Shown: one piece after another, positions 3,112 through 28,220 of the stretch
Layout: every line of letters starts with the position of its first letter
How positions within the stretch are numbered: the stretch's first letter is position 1
Assembly: GCA_965371225.1 (NCBI GenBank)
Contig: CBDUXP010000023.1
Span: 1-55,827, forward strand
Direction of reading: 5' to 3'
DNA from: CBDUXP01 sp965371225 [NCBI: uncultured bacterium]
Lineage (GTDB): Bacteria > Abyssobacteria > SURF-5 > CBDUXP01
Length of the DNA: 55,827 bases
Notes under the pieces: model-generated
Database searches by the model: none
Told to the model about the DNA's origin: nothing
Seen by the model: the letters and a program-made list of their open reading frames with translations, nothing else
Translations under genes and position numbers: made by a program

Positions 3112-3135
3112 CTATCCGTGTTCATCCGTGGTTCC
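3112..3135 (-). repeat. Interspersed repeat-like segment forming the 3' end of a cytochrome gene
   Basis: On the minus strand this reads as GGAACCACGGATGAACACG followed by GATAG. It resembles the widespread intergenic repeat of the accacRgatgaacacRgat type. Here it encodes the last residues (GTTDEHG) and the stop codon of the pentaheme cytochrome gene. Identification of the repeat family is from memory. Confidence 0.45.
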
Positions 3136-4017
3136 CTGCTTCTCGCCGCCGGTTTCGTCCGGACCGGGCGGCCCGTACCTGTCGCGCCACTCTTCGACAT
3201 AGGTCTGGCGGTACGCGAGGAGCAGCGCGGATAACCCGAAGCAGGACAGCACGATGAAGAACCCGACCCGCTGGCGCCGCGCCTGAACCACGAGCTTCGC
3301 CATGATGCGCTCTTTCTCGCCGGCCACGTTCGTTTCGATGTCGACCAGGCTCTGCGTGACGGCCTGAATGCGGCGCAGTTGAAACGTATGCAGCTCCTGC
3401 GGCACGCGCTTCTGCAACTCCTGCGCCGCCTCGTGCAGGGCGTCGATGCGGGTGCTGTGGTACCCGCTCGCCGCGAGTGCGGCGATGGCCCCATCCAGAC
3501 CCACCTCCGCGTCCTCCGCGGCCCGCAAGGCCGCTTTGGTTTGTTCGGCCCGGTCATACGTGTGGCACCGGGTGCAGAGGTCTTCCGTGATGAGGTCGCG
3601 AGTCGCACGGTGAATCGCGTGATGGTTGTTGTCGCTCCCCCCGTGGCACATGACGCAGCTCAGGCGTTCCTTTTGGAAGTGTGCGCTGAGCGGATAGTAA
3701 TCCAGGTATTCCTGGTGGCACCGCGCGCACATGTCCAGCGTCTGCGCCGCGTCGGGTTTCCTGTGCGCCCCTTCGCCCGGGTCGGGCAGCGCATCAAAGT
3801 CCGTGTCGGACATGCCGTGACACTGGCCGCAGGTGATGCCCTCGCTGTAGTGCACACTCGTCCGCCACTCGTCGATAAGCGCCACATGTTCGTCCGCCAC
3901 GTCCACGTGGCACTCGATGCACTGAATCGCGGACTCGTCCAGCGGCGCGGCGTGCGCCGGCCGGACGCCCGCCAGCCCCAGGCCTAACAGGCCCACCCAC
4001 ACGTGCGCCGGCCTCAT
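3112..4017 (-). CDS. Membrane-anchored pentaheme cytochrome c of the bc complex
   Basis: A 301-residue protein with an N-terminal signal peptide (residues 1-23, ending PAHA), five CXXCH heme sites (CIECH, CGQCH, CARCH, CVMCH, CTRCH), a helical region of about 100 residues, and a C-terminal membrane helix near residues 258-280 followed by a short charged tail. The start is ATG at 4017, which overlaps the stop of the subunit-IV gene as ATGA. The open frame extends further upstream, but the signal peptide fits this start. As last gene of the Rieske/cytochrome b operon it takes the place of cytochrome c1 or f, and should carry electrons from the Rieske protein to soluble periplasmic cytochromes. 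Multiheme c subunits in bc complexes are known from Geobacter-type and anammox bacteria. The C-terminus lies in a repeat-like sequence. Confidence 0.85.
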   Translation of the reverse strand: MRPAHVWVGLLGLGLAGVRPAHAAPLDESAIQCIECHVDVADEHVALIDEWRTSVHYSEGITCGQCHGMSDTDFDALPDPGEGAHRKPDAAQTLDMCARCHQEYLDYYPLSAHFQKERLSCVMCHGGSDNNHHAIHRATRDLITEDLCTRCHTYDRAEQTKAALRAAEDAEVGLDGAIAALAASGYHSTRIDALHEAAQELQKRVPQELHTFQLRRIQAVTQSLVDIETNVAGEKERIMAKLVVQARRQRVGFFIVLSCFGLSALLLAYRQTYVEEWRDRYGPPGPDETGGEKQGTTDEHG

Positions 4018-4421
4018 GAGTAATGCCCCCAAATCGTCAGCCCCACCGCCGCCAACACCACCATGACGAAGCCGACGGTGAACAGCGGGCGGTTGCGCAA
4101 TGCGGTGCGCGGGGCCCGATCGAGAAACGGCAAGCCGAGCAGGCCGAGCAGGGCGAGACCCTGCACCACCAACCCCAAGACCTCGCTGGGGACGAGCTTC
4201 AGGGTTTGGTAGGCGGCCAGGAAGTACCACTCGGGCTTGATGTGTTCCGGGGTGCTGTACGGATCCGCCGGCGCGCTGACGTGCATGGGCACGAGCAACA
4301 CCACCACGAGCAGGACGGCCACCAACAGCGGCACGGTGGCGGCCTCTTTCAGAAGATGGTGCGGCCAGAAGGGCACCGCGTTGTGCCGTTCGGGTTCGGG
4401 CTCATGCGTGTGGGCGGTCAT
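4014..4421 (-). CDS. Cytochrome b C-terminal domain protein (subunit IV, PetD-like)
   Basis: A 135-residue protein with three predicted membrane helices and the Qo-site PEWY motif (KPEWYFLAAYQTLK), so it forms the quinol-oxidising half of a split cytochrome b. It is somewhat shorter than chloroplast PetD. I chose ATG at 4421 because GAGGGGG lies about seven bases upstream. A GTG at 4436, overlapping the stop of the preceding gene, is a possible alternative giving five more residues. It is coupled by ATGA to the pentaheme gene. The split arrangement with the adjacent PetB-like gene points to a b6f/menaquinol-cytochrome c reductase type complex rather than mitochondrial-style bc1. Confidence 0.88.
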   Translation of the reverse strand: MTAHTHEPEPERHNAVPFWPHHLLKEAATVPLLVAVLLVVVLLVPMHVSAPADPYSTPEHIKPEWYFLAAYQTLKLVPSEVLGLVVQGLALLGLLGLPFLDRAPRTALRNRPLFTVGFVMVVLAAVGLTIWGHYS

Positions 4422-4432
4422 GGCGCACCCCC

Positions 4433-5104
4433 TCACAGGGGACGGGAGATGCCCGTCCGGCGAATCATCATGAAGTGCAGGAGCAGGCCCGCGGCGAGTA
4501 TCGCGGGGGCCAGGCCCACGTGCACCATGAAAAACCGCCGCAGGGTCGTTTCACTGATCTGTTCGCTGCCCCGCACCAGCGTCACGATGGCATCGCCGAT
4601 GCCGGGGGTCGCCCGCGGGACCTCAGTCCCCACCGTGGCCGCCCAGTAGGAGATCTGGGTCCACGGCAGGAGGTAGCCGGTGAAGGACAGGGCCAGCACC
4701 AGCAAGAGCAACCCGACGCCGCTGACCCAGTGCAGCTCGCGGGGCCGCTTGTACGCCTGGTGGTACACGACCCGGAGCATGTGGGCCAAGACCAACAGGA
4801 TCAGCAGGGTGGCGCCGTGAGCGTGGACGCCCTGGATCAACCAGCCGAACGGCACGTCGTTGCGAATGAACTCGACGCTCTGGTACGCGCCCGTGGTCGT
4901 CGGTTCGTAATACATCAGCAGGAGCACCCCGGTGAGGACCTGCGTCAGGATCGTGAAGAACGCCAGGCCGCCGAGGCAGTACAGACAGCCCGTGGCGGAG
5001 AGGGGGACGAGCTTGCCGGTGAGCAGCCGGTCCGACAGTTCGCGAATGCCGTAACGGTCGTCCAGCCAGTGGACGACGCCGTCAACCGTTTTGCGTGCTC
5101 CCAT
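4433..5104 (-). CDS. Cytochrome b N-terminal domain protein (b6, PetB-like)
   Basis: A 223-residue, four-helix cytochrome b. Helix B has the histidine pair spaced HAHGATLLILLVLAH...VYH, and helix D has HVGLAPAILAAGLLLH, a 14-residue spacing as in cytochrome b6 rather than bc1. The sequence CLYCLGG near the N-terminus matches the cytochrome b6 segment whose cysteine covalently holds the extra heme ci/cn. An additional high-spin heme at the Qi site is therefore predicted. The start is ATG at 5104, 13 bases after the Rieske stop. It works with the PetD-like protein and the Rieske protein to oxidise (mena)quinol and move protons across the inner membrane. Confidence 0.9.
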   Translation of the reverse strand: MGARKTVDGVVHWLDDRYGIRELSDRLLTGKLVPLSATGCLYCLGGLAFFTILTQVLTGVLLLMYYEPTTTGAYQSVEFIRNDVPFGWLIQGVHAHGATLLILLVLAHMLRVVYHQAYKRPRELHWVSGVGLLLLVLALSFTGYLLPWTQISYWAATVGTEVPRATPGIGDAIVTLVRGSEQISETTLRRFFMVHVGLAPAILAAGLLLHFMMIRRTGISRPL

Positions 5105-5117
5105 GGTTTGCCATCCT

Positions 5118-5699
5118 TTACTCCGGCGCCCCAATATCGATCCGTCCGTCGTCGTCCACGCGCGTCGCGAGCAGGGGGAGACTGGTCTGCGGCGGGCCGC
5201 CAAGGACATGGCCGTCGGCCGCGAACCGGCCCTCGTGGCACGGGCACACCAGCGTGCGGGTGGCATGATCCCACCGCACGATGCAGCCCAGGTGCGTGCA
5301 CACGGCCGACAGCGCCAGGAAGTCCGACTCCGAGTCGCGGACCACGATGATCGGTTTCCCGCGGTGGATGATCTGCACGGCCTCGCCCACCGCCAGGCTG
5401 TCCACCGTCAGCGTTACTTCCTGCTCCCGCTCTCCCAGAGGCGGCGCGCTGAAAAATTCGAGGACCGGGTAGACCACCGCGCCAAAGGCGCCAGCGACCC
5501 AACCCGCCAGGACCGACCCCAGCACCCGGCGTCGCGTCAGCGTGCCACGATCGCCCAGCTGCCGGGCGGCCTCCGACGCGCGCGCGCCGGTGACATGGGG
5601 CGCGGGGTGGTGGCGCTGTTCAGAACGACTTCCGCCAGCCATCGCACGGGGCCGGGGCACCGCGGCGGTCACTCTCGGGCGGCCCAGGATACGTCGCAT
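5118..5699 (-). CDS. Rieske [2Fe-2S] subunit of the bc complex
   Basis: A 193-residue protein whose C-terminal half has both Rieske boxes, CTHLGC and CPCHEG, giving two cysteine and two histidine ligands to a [2Fe-2S] cluster. Near the N-terminus TRRRVLGSVLAG followed by a hydrophobic stretch is a Tat-type membrane anchor, as is usual for Rieske proteins. I chose ATG at 5699 because GAGGTG lies six bases upstream. ATG at 5642 has no ribosome binding site, and the open frame beyond 5699 looks non-coding. It is first gene of the operon Rieske, b6, subunit IV, pentaheme c, and should pass electrons from quinol at the Qo site to the pentaheme subunit. Confidence 0.9.
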   Translation of the reverse strand: MRRILGRPRVTAAVPRPRAMAGGSRSEQRHHPAPHVTGARASEAARQLGDRGTLTRRRVLGSVLAGWVAGAFGAVVYPVLEFFSAPPLGEREQEVTLTVDSLAVGEAVQIIHRGKPIIVVRDSESDFLALSAVCTHLGCIVRWDHATRTLVCPCHEGRFAADGHVLGGPPQTSLPLLATRVDDDGRIDIGAPE

Positions 5700-5832
5700 A
5701 TCAGCCACCTCACATCGCGGGCGGGCAAGGAGGACATCGGGTCCTCGCTGCCCTCCTCCCGGGCCGATCCTCCCAATACGGCCCCCACGTGCGGCCACGG
5801 AATCGGCCCGGGTGGAAGTCTCTCTACTGCTC

Positions 5833-5862
5833 ATTATAAGATATTTACATCTGATATTCCAG
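5833..5862 (-). promoter_or_regulatory. Candidate bc operon promoter with a direct repeat
   Basis: On the minus strand a perfect TATAAT (5838-5833) sits in an AT-rich island, about 135 bases before the Rieske start. The -35 region has no good TTGACA match but holds two copies of GATATT (plus strand 5840-5845 and 5853-5858) with a 13-base period. This may be an activator site replacing a strong -35 box. The segment ACATCTGATAT (5847-5857) reappears with one change near the divergent gene. Confidence 0.5.
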
Positions 5863-6061: not shown

Positions 6062-6123
6062 AAAGGATAGAGACATCCGATATAAGGATCCGACCGCCCC
6101 CGCGGCCGGTGAGGAGGTGTTCC

Positions 6124-6753
6124 ATGCGCTGGAATCCAGGCCTTACCGCAGCCATTCTGGCACTGTCAGTTGGTCTTGCAGCACACTCCCCCGTGGGCGA
6201 GGCGGCTGATGGACCCCAATACCAACCGTCAAAATCCTGTAAGAAATGCCACTTCAAGCAGTTCAAGAGCTGGCAGAAGACGAGCATGGCGCAGGCGTTC
6301 GAAAGCCTCAGGCCAGGCGTAAAGCCCGAGGCCAAGGTGGCGGCCGGGCTCGACCCGAACAAGGACTACACCGAGGACGCGACCTGCCTACCCTGCCATA
6401 CCACCGGCTATGGCGCCCCGGGCGGCTTTGTCAGCATCGAGGAGACCCCTCTACTCGCCGGCGTTGGGTGCGACAGTTGCCACGGGCCCAGCGAGGCGTA
6501 TCTGGAGATCATGACGACGGACTATAAGAACCACCCCATCAAGGAAATGACGGACCTGGGCATGATCTATCCCCCGAAGGCCGAGCAGTGCGTCGGGTGC
6601 CACAACGACGAGAGTTCGTTCAACGCGTCTGTCGATCCCAAATACGCTTTCGACTTCGCGGAACGGGTGCAGGATGATGAAGGAGCGCACGTGCACGCAG
6701 CGCTGAAGGCGGACCACCCCGACCTGGGTTCGCTGGACGTGCTCTTCCGGTAG
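6124..6753 (+). CDS. Periplasmic tetraheme cytochrome c, c554 family
   Basis: A 209-residue protein with a signal peptide (residues 1-28, ending GEAA) and four CXXCH sites: CKKCH at 39-43, CLPCH, CDSCH and CVGCH. The spacing and the opening motif CKKCHFKQFKSWQKTSMA resemble cytochrome c554 of ammonia oxidisers, a tetraheme electron carrier. The start is ATG at 6124, preceded by GAGGAGGTG. It is transcribed away from the bc operon and towards the conduit operon, ending 27 bases before the end of the convergent 14-heme gene. A role as soluble shuttle between the bc complex, the NXR and outer-membrane cytochromes is inferred from position only. Confidence 0.87.
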   Translation: MRWNPGLTAAILALSVGLAAHSPVGEAADGPQYQPSKSCKKCHFKQFKSWQKTSMAQAFESLRPGVKPEAKVAAGLDPNKDYTEDATCLPCHTTGYGAPGGFVSIEETPLLAGVGCDSCHGPSEAYLEIMTTDYKNHPIKEMTDLGMIYPPKAEQCVGCHNDESSFNASVDPKYAFDFAERVQDDEGAHVHAALKADHPDLGSLDVLFR

Positions 6754-6780
6754 CCTGGCCGTAAGCCGGCGGGGCACGGC

Positions 6781-8733
6781 CTAGAAGCGGCCGTCGCTAT
6801 GCGTGTGGCAATTCGAGCAGTTGGGTTTGCCGCTGCCCATACTCGAAACATGGCAGGTGTTGCACAGGTAGTACGAGTTCACGTTGTCCTGATTGGGCGT
6901 CTGCTTCTTTGAGAGCAGCGTGCTGATCTCGTAAAACTGCAACTGTCCGTCATCGGCGTCAATGGGCGTGGCGCCATCCGCGGCGGTGATGGTCTGTTTC
7001 ATCTGGAACAGGTTGTTGTAGACCGTAGCGGTCACCGGCTGCGGCGTATCGTCCGGGTGCGCCTGGTGGCAGGCCCAACAGGGCAGCACGTCGTCGAGTG
7101 CCCACACGCCACCCGCGTAGCCTGTCTTGAGGCTCGCTGCCGATGCCCCGGCGCCGTGGCTGTTGGTGAGCCACGAGGCATTGAGGATGTCCACGAGCGG
7201 CCCCGCGGCGTGATCAGTGACGCCGGCCGGGAAGCTGCCGTCGTGGCAGTCGAGGCAGAACTCGGTGTACGCATCCACGCCGAGGCCGGCACCGGCGAGG
7301 CCCTCGAACCAGTTTGTTCCCGGCACGCGGCCGTCGCTCGGGTCGGGGTCGGACTTCCACGGTTGCAGGCTGTTCGCTTCGTGGGGATCGTGGCAGTCGG
7401 TGCATTCGATCTTGGCGCCGCTCTGCGTCTGAGCCGTGTACTGCACGTCGTGCCGATCGTTGAGAGTGAGCCCGTACTGCGTGGTGTCGTCAGCCGTGAG
7501 AATGGCCGTCGCAAATCCGCTCTGGACATCGACAGAGGAGATGCCGCCGCTCTGATGGCAAGCGAAGCAGAAACCCTCTTCCTCCTCCACATTGGCCGGC
7601 GGGGTCGGCGCCACGTCGGCCAGCGCCAGGAGCTTGCGCTTCTCCGACCCGTGACCGCTCCCATGACAACCGGTGGTGCCCTCGCCGAAGCAGGAGAGCG
7701 CACCGACCGTGTTGTGCGACGCAGAGGCCCACGTGGTCGCCACGTCGCGCGGCACTTCAGCGTCGGTGAACGGCAGGGTGGGATTCGCCCCGTCGTACCC
7801 GTCCGCGTCGTGGCACGCGAGACAGAACGCCGTCAGCGTGGCGGCTTCGACGGGATCGGTGAGCGGATCGCCGCCGTTCAGCACCACGAGCGGCGTGCCG
7901 CTGGCGGGGTTGTCGGGATCCCTCAAGCGCACGATCCCCTGCTGATGCTGGTCCTGCAGGTGACAGGTCTCGCAGTCGGCCACGTCGAGCGGCCCCACCA
8001 GGTGGTGACTGGTGCGGGAGAATTCCGAGAGGATTTCCCGGCGGCCGGCCTGCCACGCCGGCAGCCCATCGCTGTTGTCCTGGGGCGTGTTGTGACAGTC
8101 GCTGCACGCGCCGCCCGAGCCCCAGAAGCTCTCCACGTGCGGGTGGCACAGCGTGCAGTTCAGGCCCGTGTTGTGCCCGTGGTTTCCCGCCGGATTGTTC
8201 TGATGGTTGTCCGTGTCGGTGTGGCAGACCTCGCAGGCCCCGCTGTACACGGTGTCCAGGTCTTCGTCATCATCGGCGAACGAATACAGGGACGCCCCCC
8301 CGGCGTCCGTGCCCCGGCTCAGGAAGGCCACGACCTGCACGCCGCTGTTGGGCGTTGAGATCGTGGCGTCGTTCGTGCCGTCCTGCTGTGTACCGATCAT
8401 CATGAGGTTCGGCGTGCCCGTGAGCGGGTTGTCCAAACTATCGTGCGTTTCGTGGCAGACCGTACAGCTCATCCGAAACGCGGCTTTCGTGCTGCCCGCC
8501 TTGTTCGTGTGCACGGCGGCCTTGCGCGGCGCGGTGCCCACCAGCGGGTCGTGGCACGCCTGGCAGACGTTCTCGATGACCGGATCGGTGAGCAACTGCT
8601 GCCCACCGGACCCGTGCAACTTGTGGCAATAGTCGCAGTTGTGGTTCGGGTTCAGCGCCGCCGCCGGCGCCGAGGCCCAGCACCACGCGAGCGCCGCCGC
8701 GAGGGCAAGCACGCGGAAGAGACGCCGAGTCAT
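6781..8733 (-). CDS. Large periplasmic/extracellular multiheme cytochrome c (14 CXXCH + CX7CH)
   Basis: A 650-residue secreted protein; the signal peptide ends near APAAA. I count fourteen canonical CXXCH sites, from CDYCH near residue 33 to CSNCH just before the C-terminus. An atypical CFGEGTTGCH (CX7CH, nt 7663-7692) sits between the eighth and ninth sites and is followed by GSGH, so up to fifteen hemes are possible. Long loops rich in Asp, Gly and Thr separate the sites, as in outer-surface cytochromes. The start is ATG at 8733, overlapping the stop of the upstream NHL lipoprotein gene as ATGA, so the two are translationally coupled. It is last gene of the conduit operon. Function is inferred: electron storage or transfer at or beyond the outer membrane. 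Confidence 0.85.
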   Translation of the reverse strand: MTRRLFRVLALAAALAWCWASAPAAALNPNHNCDYCHKLHGSGGQQLLTDPVIENVCQACHDPLVGTAPRKAAVHTNKAGSTKAAFRMSCTVCHETHDSLDNPLTGTPNLMMIGTQQDGTNDATISTPNSGVQVVAFLSRGTDAGGASLYSFADDDEDLDTVYSGACEVCHTDTDNHQNNPAGNHGHNTGLNCTLCHPHVESFWGSGGACSDCHNTPQDNSDGLPAWQAGRREILSEFSRTSHHLVGPLDVADCETCHLQDQHQQGIVRLRDPDNPASGTPLVVLNGGDPLTDPVEAATLTAFCLACHDADGYDGANPTLPFTDAEVPRDVATTWASASHNTVGALSCFGEGTTGCHGSGHGSEKRKLLALADVAPTPPANVEEEEGFCFACHQSGGISSVDVQSGFATAILTADDTTQYGLTLNDRHDVQYTAQTQSGAKIECTDCHDPHEANSLQPWKSDPDPSDGRVPGTNWFEGLAGAGLGVDAYTEFCLDCHDGSFPAGVTDHAAGPLVDILNASWLTNSHGAGASAASLKTGYAGGVWALDDVLPCWACHQAHPDDTPQPVTATVYNNLFQMKQTITAADGATPIDADDGQLQFYEISTLLSKKQTPNQDNVNSYYLCNTCHVSSMGSGKPNCSNCHTHSDGRF

Positions 8734-9776
8734 GGCAAGACGCCCCCTTCCGCGAACAGCTCGATGCGGCCGGCGCGGTTGTTCGTGACGAAGACGTCTC
8801 CCGACCCGCTGTCCAGAACCACGTCGAGCGGGAAATCGAGTTGCCCCGGGCCGGCCCCATAGGTGCCCAAGGTCGCGAGACCGTTCCCGGTCACGCCGTC
8901 GTAGACCAGCACCTCGCCGGAGACACATTCCACGACGAACAGATGCCTGGCGGCGTCGACCGCAAGCCCCTGGGGCCGGGCGAAGCGACGTCCGAGCATC
9001 CCCGCTCTGCCGGTGATCGTGCGCTGGAGTTCTCCGGTATAGGCGAAGACCTGGATGCGCGGCGCAATGGACAAGTCGTCGTCGCCGTAGTCGCTGACGT
9101 ACACCTCCTGGTGCAGTGCATCCACCGCAATGCCCGTCGGTGCGGCGAGCTGCGCGGGATCGGGCCCTACCGCGGGAATCGTGCGCAGCAATAGTCCTGC
9201 ACTCGAGTAGACCTTCACCGCCCGCCGGCGCGCGTCCACGACGAAGACGAACTCGCGCCGCGGGTCCACCGCGATGTCCGTCGGCTGCCAGGTGAAGTCA
9301 TCAGCCGCGCCCAGGTTGTGCTGCCACCGGCCGAACTTGTCGTAGACCTCGACGCGCTTCGTGGTCTGGTTCCCCACGAAGATCCGGCCGCCCCCGCCCT
9401 TCAGGTACGCGACCCCCGCGGGCTGGCCCGGAATAGCGAATGCCCCGAGGACCGTCAGCTTTCGGGCATCCACGGTCAGAATCATCTGCAGCTCGCTGTC
9501 GGACACGAGCAGATCACCCGTGTGCGTCTGCGTCAGGCGGACCGGGGCCTGCACCTCAGGGGGCGGGGGCTGCGACTTCTTCGCCGGGGCAGCCGAGGCG
9601 CCCCCGATGCAGCCGACAAGCGCGCCGAGCACGGCGGCCCCGCACACCAAGCGCCGCGGGATCCAACAACAGGTGCGCACCGTCCCCCGCGTAAACGGCA
9701 TGGCCGATTCGTGGGGGCTAGGCCTCGACGGCCTCAGGCCGAGGCGCGTGCCCACGTCTGGGCTAGCTCTGCGCAT
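8730..9776 (-). CDS. NHL-repeat beta-propeller lipoprotein (third of three)
   Basis: About 348 residues with repeated NHL-type blades (for example PTDIAVD, PTGIAVD, PQGLAVD and PLDVVLD followed by VFVTNN-like strands), predicting a five- or six-bladed propeller. A lipobox GALVGC places the acylated cysteine near residue 56. ATG at 9776 is chosen for its AAGGAG box, but it gives an unusually long charged segment before the lipobox. ATG at 9701 would give a normal lipoprotein signal but lacks a ribosome binding site. It is coupled by ATGA to the 14-heme cytochrome. NHL propellers usually serve as protein-interaction platforms, so it probably docks or assembles that cytochrome. Confidence 0.8.
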   Translation of the reverse strand: MRRASPDVGTRLGLRPSRPSPHESAMPFTRGTVRTCCWIPRRLVCGAAVLGALVGCIGGASAAPAKKSQPPPPEVQAPVRLTQTHTGDLLVSDSELQMILTVDARKLTVLGAFAIPGQPAGVAYLKGGGGRIFVGNQTTKRVEVYDKFGRWQHNLGAADDFTWQPTDIAVDPRREFVFVVDARRRAVKVYSSAGLLLRTIPAVGPDPAQLAAPTGIAVDALHQEVYVSDYGDDDLSIAPRIQVFAYTGELQRTITGRAGMLGRRFARPQGLAVDAARHLFVVECVSGEVLVYDGVTGNGLATLGTYGAGPGQLDFPLDVVLDSGSGDVFVTNNRAGRIELFAEGGVLP

Positions 9777-17809: not shown

Positions 17810-17816
17810 TTACCCT

Positions 17817-18915: not shown

Positions 18916-19779
18916 CTAGAGACCCTGGAACGACGTCCCTTGGCGGGGGCGCTGTCCGAGGGCGGCCTCGGGCGGCAAGATGTCCGAGCCGGTGCCGGCG
19001 CGCGGTTCGGGCGCGGAGTAGTACCCCAGGGCGTAACTGCCCATGGTGTACCCGAGCAGTTCCTGCAGCGGTTGGGGCAACGTGCGCGCCACATGTGGGG
19101 GGCAGGACAAGTACTGGTTCTCTTCCTGGCGCAACCACCCGAGGCAGTAGGTAATGTTCAGCCCCATGCGCGGCGTGTCGGACCGGTTTTCGCCGCCGCC
19201 GTGAATGACACTCCCCGTATACACCAGCACCGAGCCCCGCGGCATCTCTGCTTGACAGACCTCCTCGGGGGTGGCCCGTTGCTCCCAATCCCAGGTCTGA
19301 CTGCCGGGCACCACACGGGTCGCGCCGTTGTCGGCCGTAAAGTCCGTCAGCGCCCAAATGGTGTTGAACTGTGGTTCGATGTTCCGCGGCAGGTGCGGGC
19401 CCCACGCGAGGCGGTCGCGATGCAACATCTGCTTCCCTTGCCCCGCCAGGAGCCGAATCGTCTGCGTCAGGTGCAGCACGATGCGCTCCGTGTAGGGCTC
19501 CAGAAATCGCTGCGCGGCGCCCAGGATGCGTTCGTCCATGACGATTTCGCGGCACGCGGGGGAGCGCGCCACCAAGGCACCGGTGCGCTGCGTCTGGCGG
19601 CCGGAAAAGTCATCGCGCCCCGTTGCGGTGCGCTCGACGTACCGCTCGACCTCGTCGCAGAAACGCCCCATGAGCGCGGGGGCAAGCGCATCACGCACGA
19701 TCGCGGCGCCGTCTTGCTGGACCGCGGCCACGATGGCGTCGGGCTCGGCGCTGGGAGCGAGGGTTTGTAGTACCGGCAT
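18916..19779 (-). CDS. Phytanoyl-CoA dioxygenase (PhyH) family protein
   Basis: A 287-residue Fe(II)/2-oxoglutarate-dependent oxygenase. The HxD pair is His120-Arg-Asp122 and the distal histidine is His193 in SVIHGGGEN; the downstream RMGL arginine should bind 2-oxoglutarate. ATG at 19779 has AGGAGGG four to five bases upstream. The family hydroxylates small molecules in diverse pathways, and the substrate cannot be read from the sequence. It lies between the cytochrome genes and the nxr operon on the same strand as nxr, 116 bases beyond its last gene, so it may be co-transcribed without being functionally linked. Confidence 0.85.
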   Translation of the reverse strand: MPVLQTLAPSAEPDAIVAAVQQDGAAIVRDALAPALMGRFCDEVERYVERTATGRDDFSGRQTQRTGALVARSPACREIVMDERILGAAQRFLEPYTERIVLHLTQTIRLLAGQGKQMLHRDRLAWGPHLPRNIEPQFNTIWALTDFTADNGATRVVPGSQTWDWEQRATPEEVCQAEMPRGSVLVYTGSVIHGGGENRSDTPRMGLNITYCLGWLRQEENQYLSCPPHVARTLPQPLQELLGYTMGSYALGYYSAPEPRAGTGSDILPPEAALGQRPRQGTSFQGL

Positions 19780-21447: not shown

Positions 21448-22200
21448 CTAGCAGTCGAATTCCCGGTCATCGGACGTGCCCGGACAGGCGAACAGTTCGG
21501 GACAGTACTCTTCGGCGATGCCCGCCGGCGGCGGCGTGCCGCATTCGGCCGCCGCAGAACGCACGCCGAGCGCTGCGCTCTCCGCGGCTAACACTTGGGC
21601 GCCGAATCGCCCACAACGCCGGTACAGCTCGACGGGCGCCTCCCGTTCGAGCCGCTCAAACAGCACGCCGGCCCACCGGCCCAGGTGTTCCTCGATGAAG
21701 CGGCGGCGGGCGGCCCGGCAGATCTCCGCTCCGTCGACATCCTGGTCGGTGAGCGCCAGCGCCTCTTTGTACAGGAGCAGCGCAATGAATTCGCACTGGA
21801 GGCTCAGGTGATCGTGGCGCTCGCGGTACCCGGGGGCCGGTTCCACCCCGAATGCGCGATAGAACCCGTTCAGGTCGGCCAACGTCTGCGATTGGGTAAA
21901 CGCGTTTGACGCGCCGTAGGACGTTTCGTACGGAGAGAAGTGTCCGGCCGGAATATGGCCGAACGTCCAACGGTACGCCGTTTCCAACCCATCCTCCCGC
22001 GTACACGCCGCGACGGCCTGCACCAGGTCGTGGCACAGCGGCGTCTGCGCGTCGGCGGGGACGGCGCGTTCCGCCGCCGCGCACCTGTCGCGCACCTCCG
22101 CCCATTGCGCCACCGGGTGCTGCTCGCGCAGCAGGTATGCCAGCAGCGTGAACCGCGTGCAGGCGCGCTCGAGTATCTCCGGCTGAACCTCAGGTTTCAT
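21448..22200 (-). CDS. TorD/NarJ-like molybdoenzyme maturation chaperone
   Basis: A 250-residue, mostly helical, cytoplasmic protein. The region ERHDHLSLQCEFIALLLYKE matches the conserved D/H-H-x-S-x-x-x-E-F pattern of the TorD/DmsD/NarJ family, which binds the Tat leader and helps insert the molybdenum cofactor. ATG at 22200 is chosen because AGGAG lies eight bases upstream; the frame extends further but reads as non-coding. It sits ten bases after nxrB and 13 before the gamma-subunit gene, the place where such chaperones occur in nxr and related operons. The C-terminal tail has several cysteines (CGTPPP, YCPELFACPG, DC at the end) that I cannot explain. Confidence 0.82.
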   Translation of the reverse strand: MKPEVQPEILERACTRFTLLAYLLREQHPVAQWAEVRDRCAAAERAVPADAQTPLCHDLVQAVAACTREDGLETAYRWTFGHIPAGHFSPYETSYGASNAFTQSQTLADLNGFYRAFGVEPAPGYRERHDHLSLQCEFIALLLYKEALALTDQDVDGAEICRAARRRFIEEHLGRWAGVLFERLEREAPVELYRRCGRFGAQVLAAESAALGVRSAAAECGTPPPAGIAEEYCPELFACPGTSDDREFDC

Positions 22201-22210
22201 TGGGGTGCTC

Positions 22211-23458
22211 CTAGATGGAATTCTGGCGTTCCGGCGGGCGCTGGTGGAAGGGTTCCTCCACCGTCGTTCGTACCACCTCGTTGTCATCGCGGTCATACCC
22301 GATGACGGTGTCGTTGTAGACGGTCAAGGGTTTCCCGCGGACCTGCCGCTCGTCGATCTTCGGGCCTTCCTGGATCTCATAGCGGTACAAGACCTTCTGC
22401 GTGCACCGGAACAACTGCAGCACCGCGAGCAGCTCCCGGGACGGACGCTCGTAGGCTTCAATGGCGTGATCCACACCGGGACCGAACATCTGCCGCAAAT
22501 ACGCCCGGGAGACCCACCGCGGCGGAATGTAATAACCGTTGGGTTGCGTCCCGAACTGGGGATACAGCGGCAGGGCGACCTTCGCCGTCTTCACCAGAAA
22601 GTACAACGGGTTCTGCGGGTCTACCGCCCAGTCGCCGGTGGCGGCATCGATCTTCACCAGCCCCTGCATCCGGATGCGCCCGACGCACGAGGTCATGCAC
22701 CGCGTCTCCATGGGCACCCCGTCCGATTCCGGATCCTTCCCTTCAATCCGCGGGTAACACCCCACGCACTTCTCGGTGACGCGCGTGGTCGACCGGTACA
22801 TGGCCTTCTTGTACGGACACGCTTCGACGCACTTCCGATACCCGCGGCAGCGTTGCTGGTCGATCAGCACGATGCCGTCTTCCGGGCGCTTGTAGATGGC
22901 CTTGCGCGGACACGCCGCCAGGCACGCGGGGTAACTGCAGTGGTTGCAGATGCGCTGGAGGTAGAAGAACCAGCTCTCGTGCTCGGGCAGCGCCGCGCCG
23001 TCCTTGGCCAAGCCGAACGGCCCGCGCTTCCACGCCCCGGAAACGTCCTCCCCGATGTTCGGATGCCGCCACTCGGCGTCGGTCGGCAGGTAGCCCAGCG
23101 CCCGCGCCGCGTTCCCACGGTTGCCGCCCTGCTCCTCGGCGGCCTCGAAGATGGTCTGGCCGCGAAAGACGCCGTCCCTCCACTTCTGCCGGCCGGGGTT
23201 CGCCTCCTCGAGCAGCCGCAACAGCTTCACGTCCCAGTTCTGCGGATATCCCCCGTAGGGTTTGGTCTCCACGTTGTTCCACCACATGTACTCCTGCCCG
23301 CGCGAGAAGGTCCATGTGGCGCGGCACGCCATGGTGCACGTCTGGCAAGCGATGCAGCGATTAGTGTTGAACACGAACGCGAACTGGGTCTGCGGATGCG
23401 CCTCCGCGTAGGGGTAACTCATCTCGCGTCCCAGTTGCCAGTTTCTGACGTGCGTCAT
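22211..23458 (-). CDS. nxrB: Nitrite oxidoreductase-type beta subunit, iron-sulfur protein
   Basis: A 415-residue protein without its own signal peptide, close in length to periplasmic-type NxrB. The opening NWQLGREMSYPYAEAHP, the block EYMWWNNVETKPYGGYPQ and NHCSYPACLAACPRKAIYK are characteristic of the Nitrospira/anammox NxrB branch. There are four cluster motifs: CIACQTCTMAC, CNHCSYPACLAAC, CRGYRKCVEAC, and CVGC plus CMTSC. In the third, Tyr occupies the position where NarH has Trp instead of Cys, which predicts one [3Fe-4S] and three [4Fe-4S] clusters. ATG at 23458 overlaps the stop of the 86-residue gene (ATGA). It should be exported as a complex with the Tat-targeted alpha subunit and wire the Mo site to the gamma subunit. 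Confidence 0.9.
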   Translation of the reverse strand: MTHVRNWQLGREMSYPYAEAHPQTQFAFVFNTNRCIACQTCTMACRATWTFSRGQEYMWWNNVETKPYGGYPQNWDVKLLRLLEEANPGRQKWRDGVFRGQTIFEAAEEQGGNRGNAARALGYLPTDAEWRHPNIGEDVSGAWKRGPFGLAKDGAALPEHESWFFYLQRICNHCSYPACLAACPRKAIYKRPEDGIVLIDQQRCRGYRKCVEACPYKKAMYRSTTRVTEKCVGCYPRIEGKDPESDGVPMETRCMTSCVGRIRMQGLVKIDAATGDWAVDPQNPLYFLVKTAKVALPLYPQFGTQPNGYYIPPRWVSRAYLRQMFGPGVDHAIEAYERPSRELLAVLQLFRCTQKVLYRYEIQEGPKIDERQVRGKPLTVYNDTVIGYDRDDNEVVRTTVEEPFHQRPPERQNSI

Positions 23459-23715
23459 GACAGCGTCTCCTCGGTCTGCACCGGCCCGCGTACTTCTGCG
23501 ATCAGGCTGCGGATACTCGCCTCGCCGAATTGCCGGTACAGGTGGTGGACCCCCTGGTAGAACGGATCCTTGAATAGCGCCAGTACCTGCTCATCGCTGT
23601 AGCCCATCAGCAGATACTCTTCCACCAGGCACTCCGCCATATGCCGCGCGTCGCCCGGGGCGCGAACCGCCATGGGCGCAAGCGGGTCTTGGGGATCGGG
23701 GTCGTACTTCGGCAT
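23455..23715 (-). CDS. Small conserved-type protein between nxrA and nxrB, function unknown
   Basis: An 86-residue soluble protein without signal or membrane segment. It is helical and acidic, with the block GYSDEQVLALFKDPFYQG followed by HHLYRQFGE. ATG at 23715 has AAGGAGA eight bases upstream, and its stop overlaps the nxrB start, so it is certainly translated as part of the operon. I recall similar short proteins beside other molybdoenzyme iron-sulfur genes but cannot name a family. Possible roles are assembly of the AB complex or cofactor delivery, inferred only from position. Confidence 0.8.
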   Translation of the reverse strand: MPKYDPDPQDPLAPMAVRAPGDARHMAECLVEEYLLMGYSDEQVLALFKDPFYQGVHHLYRQFGEASIRSLIAEVRGPVQTEETLS

Positions 23716-23728
23716 CGCGCAGTCTCCT

Positions 23729-26700
23729 TTAGGTCGTCAAGCCGCCGTTGAGATACCGGCGCATCCAGTCCGCTTCGTTATCCACCGAGCCGCCGGACTG
23801 TGCGGGCGCCCAGACACCCCGGCCGCCCAGGCCACCGTCTTCCGCCTTCGTGATCTTCACGAGCGTTTCCTTCGGCACGGTATTCACGGCGTGGTTGTCC
23901 GCCTCCCCACCGAACATGAAGGCCGTCCCGACCTTCTTCTTGTGGAACAGGCTGTCCAACTGGTGCATCGGCATCAGCCAACCCCGCGTGATGGACTGTT
24001 GGGACCCGTACCGGAAGCTGGACTGATAGCCCGTATCCAGGGACTGCGCCCGGCCGTCCGGCCGCGTCTCGTGCGCCTTCACCGAGCGCTCGGTGGCGAT
24101 CCACGCCCCGTGCTTCATCATCGTGATGTTGTACGGGTACGCCGGGTTGTACTTGACGCGCAGCATGAGCCGCGACACGCGGTAGAAGGGATCGTCCGGA
24201 CGCCAGCCCACGTACGGCCGGTCCGCCGGGTTGGCGTCGACGTATACGTAGTCGCCGTCCGCGATGCCCTGGTCGCGCGCCGCCTGGGGGTTCATGTGCA
24301 GCTGGTGCTCCCCGACGCCCGGCGTGCGGCGGTCCAGGCGGTAAGGATCCCCGAAGTCACTGCCCCAGATGAACTGCCAGTCCGTCGTCTGCCACTGCGA
24401 GTGCGTCGCGTGGCGGGTCTTCGGCGTCAGGCAATAGAAGTTGTAGCCCTTGGCCCACAGCGGGTTGGTGGTCACCTTCACCTTCGACCACGGCAGCTTG
24501 ATGTTGCGCACCTGCCGCTCGTCCCAGCCCATGTGTTCGGGCGGGATCCCGTAGTCCTCCGGCCGGATGAGCGGATTCGCGCTGACGATCACGTTCGGCA
24601 GGTACGGCGTCCCCTCGGGGCCTTCCCGGTGGACGATGAAGTTCTCGCCGTACTCGATCACCTCCGGCTCGTCGTTGTACGCCTGCAGCCGGCCCGTTGG
24701 CGAGTAGAACGGCACGGAGTCCTGAATCTGCTCGTAGAAGGGGACGCGCGGGTACGTGCGGAAGAGCATGAGCGCCGCGCCCGGTTCGCCGTACTTGCCC
24801 GCCATGATGTCCGCCAGCTTGTAGCCGCGGGTCGTGGTCGATGCGTCCAGCAGGCGCTGGATGTAGACGTCCGGATTCTTCTTGCCCTTGAGCACGAAGT
24901 GCCAGAGGTCGGTCAGCCGCGGCTCGCCGATCAGCTCGCCGATCTTTTGCGCCATCTCGGCCAGGATGACCACATCGTCCTTCGTGTCGTAAGGGGAGTC
25001 GATGCCCCCCTGCCAAATCTGCAGGAACGGATTGGAGCACGACGCCGTGATCTCGTGCACGCCGAACTCCATCCAAGACTTGGCCGCCATCGCGATGTCG
25101 CAGTACTCGATGGTCCCGTTCATCTCGATATCGGTGCCCATGATGAGCTCGATATTGGGATTCACGTTGTGGAGCATCTCGTAGACCCACTTGGCATTGT
25201 TGATGATGTTCACGTTGTTGAACCACATCACCTTCGTGGGCGTCGGCATGTGCGTGTGGCCGGTGAACGATTTGCGTCCGTACTTCGGCGTGTCGACCAC
25301 CAGCGGCCGCTCGCTGTAATTCCAGTACGCCGGCTCTTCGTCCTTCATGTACGCGTGCGCCGTAATGTCCTTCCCGTCCGTCCGCGGGTTCAGGTTCAGG
25401 TGCCAGGGGTCTTCGGCGACCCACCCTTTAAATCCAGGCCCGGTCCACGCCGACGCCTGGAACAACGCCGCTTTGTAATTGCCGGCCCACGTGTGCGACC
25501 CCGCCCCGCGCGCGCCGATGTTGCCGGTCAAGATGAGCGGCAGATAGCTCGCCCGGTTCATTTCCGTCGCATGGAACCAGTGGTTGATCCCCTCGCCCTG
25601 GTGGATGGCGACGGGCTTGATGGTGGCGATGTCGTTGGTCAGCCGCCGGATCAGGGCCTTGGGTACGCCGGTGATCTCGTGCACCGTGTCCAGGTCGTAG
25701 TCCTGCAGATGCACCCGGTACAGCTCGAACAGCGGCGCCACCTCGATCTGCTCTCCGTCCACAGTGGTGACCGTGTGCCGGCCTTCGAGCGCCGGATCGA
25801 TACCCAACGCGTCGAGCTTGTCCCCGACGTCGTCCCGCGTGATGGCCTTCAAGCCACCCGTGCGCGCGTCCCACACCACGAAGTCGCCCACCTGTTCGCG
25901 CTGGTCCGGGGTGAGCCCGTGCAGGTGCATGGACGCCCCGCCGGTGATGTCCGGCTGTTCGTAGCCCGGGATCACGTCCTCCGGGTGCAAGCGCTTCAGC
26001 GTGTCCGTCCGCACCAGCAGCGGGAAGTCCGTGAACCGTTTAACGAATGCCGCGTCGTACGTCCCTTCGTCGATCAGCAATCGCGCGATGCCCAGCAGCA
26101 GCGCCGTGTCTGTCGCTGGACGGATGGGCAGCCAATAGTCCGACTTGGTGGCCGGCGGGGAGTACTCGGGCGCGACGGTGACGATGGTGGCGCCGCGTTC
26201 CATACATTCGATGAAGAAGTGGTTGTCCGGCCGCTTGTTCTCGACCAGGTTTTTCCCCATCTGAATGTGCAGCTTCGTCGAGCGCATGTCGTTGAGGTCG
26301 CAGTCCGAAGCCTGGAGACCGTGAACGAACGGGTGGCCCGGCGCCTGGTCGCCGTGCCACGTGTAGTTCGACCAGGAGCGCGCCCCTTTCGCCTCGTCCG
26401 GCCCAACGCCGCGGATATGCGCGTCCAACAGCGCCATTCCGTTGGCGTTGCGGTACATGCCGTACTTGCCGATGACCCCCAGCAAACCCATACCGCCGCG
26501 GAACTTGAACGTGCGCGTGCCTGCGCCTTCCCAATGTTCCAGCATTTCCGGTACATAGCCCTGGGCCAGGAGCCGCTTCTTGCCGACCGGCCCGCTGTAT
26601 TTCTTGGCGATGTGAATCATCCCTTTAGCCGCGTACGTGTATGCCTCGTCCCACGAGGCCCGCAGGAACTCATCCGACCCCCGAGAATCAAACTTGTATT

Positions 26701-27175
26701 TCGCCTTGTTCTCCGGCGTCAGCTCGGGGAAGCCGTCGTCCGCCCACTGTTTCCAGCCGCGGCGGATGATCGGGTGTTTGAGACGGTAGGGGCCGTACTG
26801 CCGCCGGTGCATGGTGAACCCGTTCGAGCACCCGCGCGGGTTCCACGCGGGCGTGGCGCGATTGCCGTACAGGTCCCCGACACGATGGGAGTCATAGTTC
26901 TGCTCGGTTCGCACCACCACGCCGTTGCGCACGTACGCGCGCATCCGACACTCATGCGTGCAGTTCGGCGAACAGACCCACGCGAAGGAACTGTCGTAGC
27001 GGTATTGGTCCAGGTACACCTGCTCCCAATCGCGCGACGGGTAACTGGCCAGCGGATTGGGGACATCGACGGTCGGTTGGAGGGCAGCGAATGCGAAGCG
27101 CGGGCGGGCCAGTATCCCTGCGGCTCCGGTGGCCGCGGCACTCTTCAGGAACGTTCTTCTCGTCAGGTCCGACAT
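23729..27175 (-). CDS. nxrA: Nitrite oxidoreductase-type alpha subunit, molybdopterin enzyme
   Basis: A 1148-residue type II DMSO-reductase-family catalytic subunit, the length of periplasmic NxrA. A Tat signal (TRRTFLK at 5-11) opens the protein. The proximal iron-sulfur cluster has Cys68, Cys72, Cys76 and Cys116, whereas NarG uses histidine as first ligand. SNYTWHGDQAPGHPFVHG contains Asp276, aligned with the Mo-ligating aspartate of NarG and EbdA, and is typical of the Nitrospira/anammox branch. ATG at 27175 has GGGAGA six bases upstream. Predicted reaction: nitrite plus water to nitrate with two electrons released in the periplasm, reversible in principle. Relatives acting on other oxyanions or hydrocarbons exist, so the substrate needs a phylogeny. 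NxrB, the chaperone and the gamma subunit follow. Confidence 0.88.
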   Translation of the reverse strand: MSDLTRRTFLKSAAATGAAGILARPRFAFAALQPTVDVPNPLASYPSRDWEQVYLDQYRYDSSFAWVCSPNCTHECRMRAYVRNGVVVRTEQNYDSHRVGDLYGNRATPAWNPRGCSNGFTMHRRQYGPYRLKHPIIRRGWKQWADDGFPELTPENKAKYKFDSRGSDEFLRASWDEAYTYAAKGMIHIAKKYSGPVGKKRLLAQGYVPEMLEHWEGAGTRTFKFRGGMGLLGVIGKYGMYRNANGMALLDAHIRGVGPDEAKGARSWSNYTWHGDQAPGHPFVHGLQASDCDLNDMRSTKLHIQMGKNLVENKRPDNHFFIECMERGATIVTVAPEYSPPATKSDYWLPIRPATDTALLLGIARLLIDEGTYDAAFVKRFTDFPLLVRTDTLKRLHPEDVIPGYEQPDITGGASMHLHGLTPDQREQVGDFVVWDARTGGLKAITRDDVGDKLDALGIDPALEGRHTVTTVDGEQIEVAPLFELYRVHLQDYDLDTVHEITGVPKALIRRLTNDIATIKPVAIHQGEGINHWFHATEMNRASYLPLILTGNIGARGAGSHTWAGNYKAALFQASAWTGPGFKGWVAEDPWHLNLNPRTDGKDITAHAYMKDEEPAYWNYSERPLVVDTPKYGRKSFTGHTHMPTPTKVMWFNNVNIINNAKWVYEMLHNVNPNIELIMGTDIEMNGTIEYCDIAMAAKSWMEFGVHEITASCSNPFLQIWQGGIDSPYDTKDDVVILAEMAQKIGELIGEPRLTDLWHFVLKGKKNPDVYIQRLLDASTTTRGYKLADIMAGKYGEPGAALMLFRTYPRVPFYEQIQDSVPFYSPTGRLQAYNDEPEVIEYGENFIVHREGPEGTPYLPNVIVSANPLIRPEDYGIPPEHMGWDERQVRNIKLPWSKVKVTTNPLWAKGYNFYCLTPKTRHATHSQWQTTDWQFIWGSDFGDPYRLDRRTPGVGEHQLHMNPQAARDQGIADGDYVYVDANPADRPYVGWRPDDPFYRVSRLMLRVKYNPAYPYNITMMKHGAWIATERSVKAHETRPDGRAQSLDTGYQSSFRYGSQQSITRGWLMPMHQLDSLFHKKKVGTAFMFGGEADNHAVNTVPKETLVKITKAEDGGLGGRGVWAPAQSGGSVDNEADWMRRYLNGGLTT

Positions 27176-27209
27176 GATGCGTCTCCCGTGATGTTCACGT
27201 GCACTACGA

Positions 27210-28220
27210 CTACCGTGCCAATTCGCACCGACTCAAGATGACCAGCCGTTCGAGACAATGCCCGCACACGCCGCCCTCGGCCGCGGGGTATTCCTGCGCC
27301 ACCGCCGTGCGAGCCGGCTCCGGCACCTCGTCCAGCGGCTGGACGTCAGCCGAAGCGAACCGACACAACGCGCACGTCTCGATCGCTCGCGACTGGCCGC
27401 GGCGCGCCGCCGCGCGCAGGTGCGCGGCGTTGGCCAACAACTCCTGGTGCGTCAAGACCTCGGGGCCTGTTACCCGGTCCAGAATCGCCTGGGCCGTCTC
27501 TGGACCGGCCCGGCCCACCAGGCGTGCCACGGCTGAAGCCATGTCCACACTCGCAGAGGGGCCCGCCCACCGCCGCCGCATCCGCGCGTCCGTGTACAAC
27601 GCCCAGACCAGCCCATAGGCCTCGAGCATCAGGCGCGCCTCCGCCGGCGACAGCTCTCCCGGCAGGTCGCCGCCCTCGTACCCGAACCGGGGATCCGTCA
27701 AGTCCCCCAGTTGGATCCAGTTGAACCGCAAGAAGGCGCGAAGGCCGGCCTCGTCCAGGAACCGTTCGGGCCGAATGCGGAGGATGGCTCGGCGAGGGCC
27801 AAGCTCGGAGCGGGGGCGCCCGGAAAGATCCGTCCCCTCCTCCGCCGCACGCCCGGCACGAACCACCACCAGCGCGCACACGGCATCGTGCAGCGCGGGG
27901 AATTCGCGCAGCGACTGCGTAAGGCTCCGTTCGTAACCAAGCCGCGAAAACAGCGAACCGTAGAGATCCCGGAACGCCGCTTCCCGGTCGCGGGCCGGGG
28001 TACCCTGATAAATGCGGTCGGCCGCGCGCCGAAACTCCAACAACATCCGCTTCTGGAGGAGATCCGACGGCCCCTGCAGCCGATCCTCGACCGCTGCCTC
28101 TGCGAGGGCGGGATCAATAGCGAGTGAGATGCCGGCTGCCCTGGCCGACACTACCGGCTTGCCTCTACACCCATACCGGACCTCTCTCTTTGCCCACCAC
28201 TGTCCCAGTCGTCGAGGCAC
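27210..28220 (-). CDS. Unknown protein with C-terminal zinc-ribbon-like cysteines, first gene of the nxr operon
   Basis: A 336-residue cytoplasmic protein with no signal peptide. The N-terminal 250 residues are helical and arginine-rich. The C-terminus has two CxxC pairs, Cys283/Cys286 (CALC) and Cys319/Cys322 (CGHC), a likely zinc ribbon. The segment LTDPRFGYE and the later VWALYTDARMRRRW recall proteins that carry an HExxH metallopeptidase-like motif before DP.FGY, but the corresponding residues here are FNWIQ, so no metal site is left; that comparison is from memory. The start is uncertain: GTG at 28220 fits the frame but has no clear ribosome binding site. It is 34 bases upstream of nxrA, directly behind the operon promoter, so a role in expression or maturation of NXR is plausible. 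Confidence 0.65.
   Translation of the reverse strand: MPRRLGQWWAKREVRYGCRGKPVVSARAAGISLAIDPALAEAAVEDRLQGPSDLLQKRMLLEFRRAADRIYQGTPARDREAAFRDLYGSLFSRLGYERSLTQSLREFPALHDAVCALVVVRAGRAAEEGTDLSGRPRSELGPRRAILRIRPERFLDEAGLRAFLRFNWIQLGDLTDPRFGYEGGDLPGELSPAEARLMLEAYGLVWALYTDARMRRRWAGPSASVDMASAVARLVGRAGPETAQAILDRVTGPEVLTHQELLANAAHLRAAARRGQSRAIETCALCRFASADVQPLDEVPEPARTAVAQEYPAAEGGVCGHCLERLVILSRCELAR

Follow-up and report, generated by a model that had tools for sequence, protein, structure and literature searches.

A periplasmic-type nitrite oxidoreductase operon beside a Uet-like extracellular electron transfer island in an Abyssobacteria contig

Two kinds of described systems come closest to the locus reported here. 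The first is the undecaheme electron transfer (Uet) complex, described from Tenderiales that oxidise cathodes and also present in Gallionella, which oxidise iron (PMC10734462; the papers cited here were accessible in part, and all statements on them refer to that part). Expression of the undecaheme gene of Tenderia clusters with respiratory complexes on the biocathode (PMC5371394). Among the porin-cytochrome clusters of karst metagenome-assembled genomes (MAGs) one group is centred on undecaheme or >20-heme cytochromes, and one MAG of this group carries petB and petC inside the cluster, as does the locus described below (PMC13264449). The second is nitrite oxidoreductase (NXR). NXR genes were noted before in Rokubacteria (PMC5712423), and Planctomycetota MAGs from an Oslofjord tunnel hold an NXR of the same broad type as the one analysed here. 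Genes for manganese, arsenite or iron oxidases occur in 12 of 19 nxr-bearing Planctomycetota MAGs, and coupled nitrogen and metal cycles were proposed for nxr-bearing MAGs, with ferric iron among the possible acceptors (PMC10732223). The combination of nitrogen and metal cycling in nxr-bearing genomes is already in print there. Here, we analysed a stretch of 55,827 nucleotides (contig CBDUXP010000023.1 of assembly GCA_965371225.1, uncultured bacterium CBDUXP01 sp965371225, Abyssobacteria), in the following called the window. Within ~25 kb of it (3112-28151) an NXR operon, an extracellular electron transfer (EET) island and a b6f-like complex were found. Unlike the window, the karst clusters have no NXR mentioned beside them in the accessible text, and the corresponding text on the Oslofjord MAGs describes co-occurrence within genomes and mentions no adjacent NXR-Uet locus. 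No report of an NXR operon adjoining a Uet-like conduit was found in the open-access literature searched, subscription papers lying outside that scope.

We read the locus, at a rough probability of 0.55, as a respiratory locus of two functional, separately transcribed units that can share a periplasmic cytochrome pool. Unit 1 (3112-18884) is an EET island of Uet/OmcE-like type that includes a quinone-linked complex of Rieske protein, cytochrome b6, subunit IV and a pentaheme cytochrome. Judged from the known families, electrons would pass, in either direction, between the quinone pool, periplasmic multiheme cytochromes, a conduit of 11-heme cytochrome, barrel and NHL lipoproteins, and an OmcE-type surface cytochrome. 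Unit 2 (18916-28151) is a periplasmic NXR operon whose enzyme would exchange electrons with soluble cytochromes c via NxrC. With the periplasmic cytochrome pool in common, the host may use the NXR and EET units as alternative branches. The least certain step concerns NXR itself, which is probably reversible or a nitrate reductase under anoxia.

Genes were called from the GC bias at third codon positions, with start codons as estimates, and assigned by translation and profile scans; lipoproteins were called by their lipobox pattern only. Read from right to left, the minus strand carries an accessory open reading frame (ORF), nxrA, a small ORF, nxrB, a gene for a NarJ/TorD-type chaperone, nxrC and a PhyH gene. 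Left of PhyH lies a 9-heme cytochrome gene on the plus strand, followed on the minus strand by genes for a tetraheme cytochrome, an NHL lipoprotein, a pentaheme lipoprotein, a barrel, an NHL lipoprotein, an 11-heme cytochrome, an NHL lipoprotein and a 14-heme cytochrome. A c554-like gene (plus strand) and the Rieske, b6, subunit IV and pentaheme genes (minus strand) are leftmost. The first-pass annotation had placed an NXR operon, a Rieske/b6 complex with a pentaheme subunit, and a barrel conduit with multiheme cytochromes and NHL lipoproteins together within 25 kb, and all of these parts were found where it had put them. It had also set aside a single gene as foreign to these systems, and for this gene alone, encoding a PhyH-family dioxygenase (18916..19779, minus strand, candidate start; PF05721, E 2.6e-26) directly after nxrC, no evident link to the respiratory systems was found.

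Adjacency of NXR and conduit was not seen elsewhere in the relatives examined, while both modules are known separately. Seen from the conduit, searches with the 11-heme protein gave hits in 3 of 95 Methylomirabilota genomes (E limit 1e-30), in 16 of 198 from the phylum to which genome G013 belongs (E limit 1e-60; G and L numbers are our handles for genomes and loci), and in 19 of 392 Planctomycetota and 27 of 396 Acidobacteriota genomes (E limit 1e-50 each). The conduit sample comprised 68 places in 62 genomes; G236, G258, G314 and G1052, as well as G974, which fell below the length filter, were left out. At 29 of these places the stretch analysed reaches at least 16 kb on the side where the window has its NXR, and at 21 on both sides. 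Near the 11-heme gene NHL proteins were found at 67 of the 68 places, tetraheme cytochromes at 45, mhc5-like at 47 and mhc9-like matches at 44, and a barrel at 36; a Rieske/b6 pair occurred at 7 places and c554 at 4. These neighbour counts are minima with many contig ends close by, and the mhc5 and mhc9 matches lie partly in one larger cytochrome. NXR was found near the conduit at none of the 68 places, a result that is firm for the 29 reaching at least 16 kb and weaker for the others. The gene order of the conduit (tetraheme, NHL, pentaheme, barrel, NHL, 11-heme, and close by a cytochrome of 9-14 hemes) is seen again with no NXR beside it in, for example, L154, L155, L159 and L162, and also in L188, L209, L211 and L220, where some loci have an additional cytochrome or a differently placed mhc9. 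L248 shows NHL and 11-heme genes followed by c554, Rieske, b6, subunit IV and pentaheme genes as in the window, and differs from it in the content between 11-heme and c554 genes and in the strand of c554.

A conduit neighbour in G084 that a script had flagged as NXR was rejected, being a match of 52 residues in an ORF of 894 residues closest to PhsA/QrcB models. NxrB-like matches of 26-29% near conduits were found in L172, L196, L208 and L224; L172, L196 and L224 were scanned and gave QrcC or DsrO as best models, below the cut-offs. ORFs near conduits (L122 7484-10853, L224 16895-17593, L172 9837-10904, L196 17767-18705) are closest to PhsA/QrcB, QrcC or DsrO, likewise below cut-offs. Such Qrc- or DsrO-like proteins near conduits would fit a conduit able to work with various quinone-linked partners, and the gene neighbourhoods suggest that these modules may be exchangeable.

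Seen from NXR, a scan of the genome collection with NxrA yielded 238 relatives, and all locus counts refer to the best 80 of these 238. Flanks of up to 10 kb were used, with at least 9 kb downstream in 49 of the 80 loci and on both sides in 34. Tetraheme, pentaheme lipoprotein, 9-, 11- and 14-heme cytochromes, barrel and c554 were found in 0 of 80 NXR loci (tblastn, E<=1e-5, available flanks), and NHL gave one weak match (L033, 25%). Multiheme genes are not rare around NXR, as 13 of these 34 loci contain an ORF with at least four CxxCH motifs. In L004, two ORFs of four hemes each follow nxrA at distances of 6.7 and 8.1 kb downstream, both unlike those of the window by tblastn. Rieske and b6 genes were found upstream of NXR in 4 of 80 loci (L044, L073, L074, L077), with subunit IV in three of the four and a pentaheme-like match in two (one with E 1.6e-5 only). 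Two of them, L074 and L077 (labelled Gemmatimonadota and Planctomycetota), carry Rieske/b genes and 4-11-heme ORFs within 10 kb upstream of nxrA. NXR operons with the gene order of the window (accessory ORF, A, small ORF, B, D, C) occurred without a conduit in the available sequence in L004, L005, L018 and L121, of which L018 and L121 are short contigs.

At the level of whole genomes, 3 of 29 NXR genomes searched encode the tetraheme protein, and 4 of 79 (the genome of L042 left out) encode the 11-heme protein. NXR and an 11-heme cytochrome occur within one genome in G005, G013, G333 and G345, and also in G084. The nxr contig of G084 ends ~0.3 kb past nxrC, and its conduit contig reaches 13.8 kb and >34 kb to either side of the 11-heme gene; the tight spacing of the window is therefore absent in G084. 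Another 15 conduit genomes from the G013 phylum were searched for NxrA; 14 gave no match at E<=1e-100, and one gave a divergent match of 42%. All three conduit-bearing Methylomirabilota hold an NxrA-like gene, full at 73% in G084, a fragment plus a 43% relative in G090 and a 42% relative in G113. Taking NxrB of at least 65% identity as the mark of an NXR carrier, with classes counted by hand, the conduit was not enriched among NXR-bearing Methylomirabilota (1/23 vs 2/72, Fisher p 0.57, or 0.16 if the broken operon of G090 is counted as NXR; numbers are small). In this operon of G090 (L124, G090:C50:1-20000, 3708-4475) most of nxrA and nxrB seems to be missing, and NxrA residues 3-193 abut NxrB residues 334-415, through a deletion or an assembly fault.

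The first-pass annotation had proposed one respiratory chain and, as a check on it, that nxr and conduit genes be looked for together in related genomes. In the sequence available around them, they were together at 0 of 68 conduit places and in 0 of 80 NXR loci, which comes near the outcome it had named as refuting its proposal, although genomes holding both are few and fragmented. One part of the single chain stood, as the bc complex goes with the conduit elsewhere (7 of 68 places); membership of NXR in the same conserved chain was not supported. That adjacency was seen nowhere else would also fit a contig assembled as a chimera of two genomes. Genes from 3 kb to 28 kb share the same strong third-position GC pattern, with a GC content at third codon positions of 0.77-0.89 throughout, and PhyH follows close behind nxrC, with 31 bases left between PhyH and the 9-heme gene, so that we regard a chimera as highly improbable.

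The orientation of the genes argues for separate units. PhyH (minus strand, stop at 18916) and the 9-heme gene (plus strand, stop at 18884) converge with their ends 31 bases apart. A spacer of ~430 bases (17390-17816) lies between the divergent 9-heme and tetraheme genes, and the c554-like and Rieske genes also diverge. These convergent and divergent arrangements suggest that NXR, conduit and bc genes form units of their own. In 2900-7200 five terminator-like sites were counted against 1.9 (SD 1.3) in shuffles, one of them just beyond the pentaheme gene, to which we attach little weight. Several points weigh against two independent units with NXR working toward nitrate. Consensus scans for promoters and terminators between 16500 and 20000 gave about as many sites as shuffled sequence, and the case for separate transcription is hence one of orientation. 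Moreover, nxrC and the tetraheme gene are only ~2.5 kb apart in the window, a spacing unusual for random placement in a genome of several Mb, and a link in this lineage is conceivable. Finally, the NXR-side clade of PMC10732223 holds both nitrite oxidisers and nitrate reducers and sequence could not assign the direction there; its authors nonetheless favour nitrite oxidation for this clade (PMC10732223, accessible text), to which the NXR of the window belongs.

In the NXR operon, nxrA (23729..27175, minus strand) encodes the molybdopterin catalytic subunit with a twin-arginine translocation (TAT) signal and molybdopterin Pfam domains. The protein matched PDB 7b04 ("Nitrite oxidoreductase subunit A"), which we take to be the Kuenenia enzyme, end to end with 1849 bits over residues 4-1146. 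Its motifs are NYTWHGDQAPGHP and CSPNCTHEC, and the Mo-site motif NYTWHGDQ was present in NxrA of the window and in 80 of 80 relative loci, and is thus common to anammox loci and the window. nxrB (22211..23458, minus strand) encodes the iron-sulfur subunit, assigned by the dimethyl sulfoxide (DMSO) reductase type II beta model, with matches of 59-75% identity, part of them partial, in 76 of 80 loci. nxrD (21448..22200, minus strand; PF02613, E 4.9e-17; TIGR03482, E 2.1e-16) encodes the NarJ/TorD-type chaperone and recurs in 71 of 80 loci, as does nxrC (19896..21434, minus strand), in whose product two cytochrome c domains, with two CxxCH motifs, are fused to an EB_dh domain (PF00034 and PF09459). 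This fusion is a probable difference from the NXR of anammox bacteria. Two further ORFs belong to the operon. The small conserved ORF of 86 residues between nxrA and nxrB (23455..23715, minus strand) has a homologue of 28-47% in 59 of 80 NXR loci and no match in the Pfam scan. The NXR-linked accessory ORF of ~313 residues (27210..28151, minus strand) has a homologue in 47 of 80 loci at E<=1e-5 and an invariant CxxC...CxxC pair across 26 aligned sequences. Its Pfam scan gave no family, and its structural model, with a predicted local distance difference test score (pLDDT) of 85.8, gave no PDB match at E<=0.001 in the fold search. A HELxH-like stretch stands in the consensus of the 26 relatives and is altered in the copy of the window.

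Full-length NxrA homology, TAT signal and Mo-site motif were found together with genes for A, B, the chaperone and a heme-b gamma subunit. By its sequence the enzyme is thus a periplasmic-type NXR. The first-pass annotation had named a phylogeny placing the alpha subunit with an enzyme for another substrate as refuting its proposal; both the 7b04 match and the NxrA tree put it with NXR. This quick tree of 82 rows is read without a root and without the reference NXR of Nitrospira or Nitrospina. In it the NxrA of the window falls within a set of 12 rows (SH-aLRT, the Shimodaira-Hasegawa-like approximate likelihood ratio test, 100) apart from the anammox sequences. This set holds Rokubacteria, G084, Planctomycetota, one Myxococcaceae MAG, Marinimicrobia and one MAG labelled Bacteroidetes, and the nearest relative among the best 80 is a Rokubacteria MAG with 73%. 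All 12 rows have Cys where anammox sequences have Asp in CSPNxTH, a residue which, by comparison with NarG, we presume to be a ligand of the FS0 cluster; the motif of the window is CSPNC rather than the anammox-type CSPND. Over the 80 loci the residue is Asp in 66, Cys in 13 and was not read in 1. Besides the window, Cys was found in L001, L002, L003, L006, L007, L018, L040, L048, L049, L062, L064, L066 and L068. Since at least four changes of this label are needed on the NxrA tree, Cys is not confined to the clade of the window, and because 13 other family members have it, we treated it as a clade mark and not as an exclusion from NXR. Whether the enzyme oxidises nitrite or reduces nitrate cannot be assigned from these features.

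The predicted DmsE-like 9-heme cytochrome (17817..18884, plus strand) has nine CxxCH motifs, matched the DmsE family TIGR03508 (E 3e-21) and, with E 4e-9, PDB 6r2q_A. We take this chain to be MtrA, the PDB listing naming it otherwise. Relatives of the 9-heme gene and of the c554-like gene adjoin conduits in other genomes. The tetraheme cytochrome (16694..17389, minus strand) was assigned to the OmcE nanowire family as UetA-like (PDB 7tfs, E 1e-19; 9yuq, E 8.5e-26). The match to 7tfs, listed only as "Cytochrome c" and presumably the Geobacter OmcE nanowire, spans query residues 15-232; the family is assigned by sequence homology. It is followed by an NHL-repeat protein with a VSAC lipobox (15449..16564, minus strand; PF01436, E 1.8e-14) and a pentaheme c-type protein with five CxxCH motifs, an ILGC lipobox and Pfam support (14745..15440, minus strand). 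The next gene (12742..14718, minus strand) probably encodes an outer-membrane beta-barrel in a UetC-like position. No Pfam match at E<=0.01 was obtained for it; its model from 4 sequences is almost entirely beta strand at low confidence (mean pLDDT 60.5), and its fold matches (best 50 of 175, E<=0.001) are for the most part barrels of the outer membrane, among them FecA, Cir and LptD. Three homologues of 22-26% lie in conduit loci. A second NHL-repeat protein with a VGGC lipobox (11696..12751, minus strand; PF01436, E 3.7e-31) precedes the UetJ-like undecaheme cytochrome (9963..11699, minus strand). The latter has 11 CxxCH motifs and an OmcE-like N-terminal part, residues 16-214 or the first third matching 7tfs (E 5.2e-28) and 9yuq. 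Among ORFs with at least seven CxxCH motifs, 71 distinct homologues were obtained at E<=1e-60, and 62 of these have exactly 11 motifs; a plasmid search with the 11-heme protein gave no match. A third NHL-repeat protein with an LVGC lipobox (8730..9701, minus strand; PF01436, E 8.7e-13), the 14-heme cytochrome (6781..8733, minus strand; 14 CxxCH, Pfam multiheme domains) and the c554-like tetraheme cytochrome (6109..6753, plus strand; PF13435, E 1.6e-28; NF043010, E 2.5e-35, below its cut-off) complete the set.

The comparison with the Uet complex of Ca. Tenderia electrophaga and Gallionella was made by component description and not by sequence. Common to both are an undecaheme cytochrome, an extracellular tetraheme cytochrome, NHL proteins and a barrel porin (PMC10734462). 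No called gene with exactly three CxxCH motifs, as expected for the triheme UetDEG, was found between 3112 and 28220, and no Pfam match to a peptidyl-prolyl isomerase, as for UetB, among the window proteins scanned; because of this we call the conduit Uet-like and not Uet proper. Beyond Uet, the window has the pentaheme lipoprotein, the 9-heme and 14-heme cytochromes and the Rieske/b complex.

The genes of this complex lie leftmost. The Rieske iron-sulfur protein (5118..5834, minus strand; PF00355, E 1.4e-13; PetC-like NF045928, E 4.2e-22) was given as its longest frame, with a true start perhaps at 5699 or 5642. Cytochrome b6 (4433..5266, minus strand; PF00033, E 2.5e-56), also the longest frame with a likely start at 5104, has two His-x13/14-His pairs as heme ligands. 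A subunit IV gene of PetD-like type (4014..4421, minus strand; PF00032, E 3e-23), absent from the gene list of the first-pass annotation, carries PEWY at ~4235, and the complex is therefore b6f-like with a split cytochrome b. The pentaheme c protein of the bc gene set (3112..4017, minus strand) has five CxxCH motifs, Pfam support and a C-terminal hydrophobic stretch. An ORF of 965 residues with a C-terminal adenylate/guanylate cyclase domain (27-2924) adjoins the bc genes.

We then weighed how NXR and EET might be connected. The nitrate/nitrite couple lies at ~ +0.43 V, and quinones and most Fe(III) minerals lie far lower. NXR working toward nitrate is favoured because, by these potentials, electron flow from quinol or the surface to nitrate is easier than outward flow from nitrite. 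A coupling of NXR and conduit, most plausibly passing extracellular electrons to nitrate, is possible and has their adjacency in one contig as its evidence. That one chain joins EET to NXR at all, likeliest as nitrate respiration on electrons taken in by a surface cytochrome of OmcE type, or else, under strongly oxidising conditions, as anaerobic oxidation of nitrite that passes electrons to Mn(IV) or an electrode, we consider doubtful. In its inward form, electrons of Fe(II), a mineral, a cathode or a partner cell would enter by the Uet-like conduit and reach nitrate at NXR via periplasmic cytochromes. This direction is downhill, Uet is known from Tenderiales and Gallionella, the units are adjacent in the window, and the five genomes named above hold both. 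The adjacency is, however, conserved neither across NXR loci nor across conduit places, the conduit shows no excess in NXR-bearing Methylomirabilota, the undecaheme gene of Tenderia was not differentially expressed between two electrode potentials (PMC5371394), and undecaheme cytochromes also occur in a Mn-reducing bacterium (cited in PMC13264449), so that the direction is not fixed. We judge the inward chain to be rather unlikely.

In the outward chain, the main proposal of the first-pass annotation, NXR would oxidise nitrite without oxygen, and the electrons would go to a mineral, an electrode or a partner cell. This chain agrees with the adjacency, with the grouping of NxrA in the NXR family, and with the preference of the Oslofjord study for nitrite oxidation, ferric iron being listed among the possible acceptors of its MAGs (PMC10732223). 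At its potential nitrite would feed only acceptors that are themselves very oxidising, for instance Mn(IV) oxides or a poised anode, the conduit is elsewhere accompanied by a quinol-linked complex that would be superfluous with nitrite as donor, and the linkage is not conserved. Taken together, these points make the outward chain very unlikely. The proposal had also leaned on the lack of a visible oxidase. None was found among the window genes scanned, some ORFs of the right half lying outside the scan, but PF00115 (COX1) genes were present in 9 of 9 genomes checked, including those with both NXR and conduit (best match each E<=1e-130; the family also includes nitric oxide reductases). The absence of an oxidase from the window is therefore no evidence for anaerobic nitrite oxidation and carries little weight. 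The same genes, and the oxygen reductase genes in most nxr-bearing MAGs of PMC10732223, would fit an aerobic nitrite oxidiser or versatile respirer, in which an oxidase encoded elsewhere serves NXR and the EET island is kept for other conditions. As 0 of 12 rows of the NxrA clade are labelled as a cultured nitrite oxidiser, we hold this to be unlikely. Two separately transcribed units with a common periplasmic cytochrome pool remain our preferred reading.

To the right of the NXR operon an amidase gene (30850-32346) was found, for which the best identity among 95 Methylomirabilota genomes was 56%. In the part from 36066 to 55827, of which a subset of ORFs was scanned, asparagine-synthase, methyltransferase/sulfotransferase and ABC-transporter genes are present, perhaps for the synthesis of a surface polysaccharide.

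Were the two units coupled, the turnover of nitrite and nitrate would be tied to minerals or partner cells in the absence of oxygen, which would alter the picture of how nitrogen and metal cycles connect in groundwater and soil. Even if they are uncoupled, Uet-like 11-heme cytochromes are spread over several phyla, in part next to a Rieske/b complex linked to quinones, and a clade of NXR is marked out by its altered FS0 motif.

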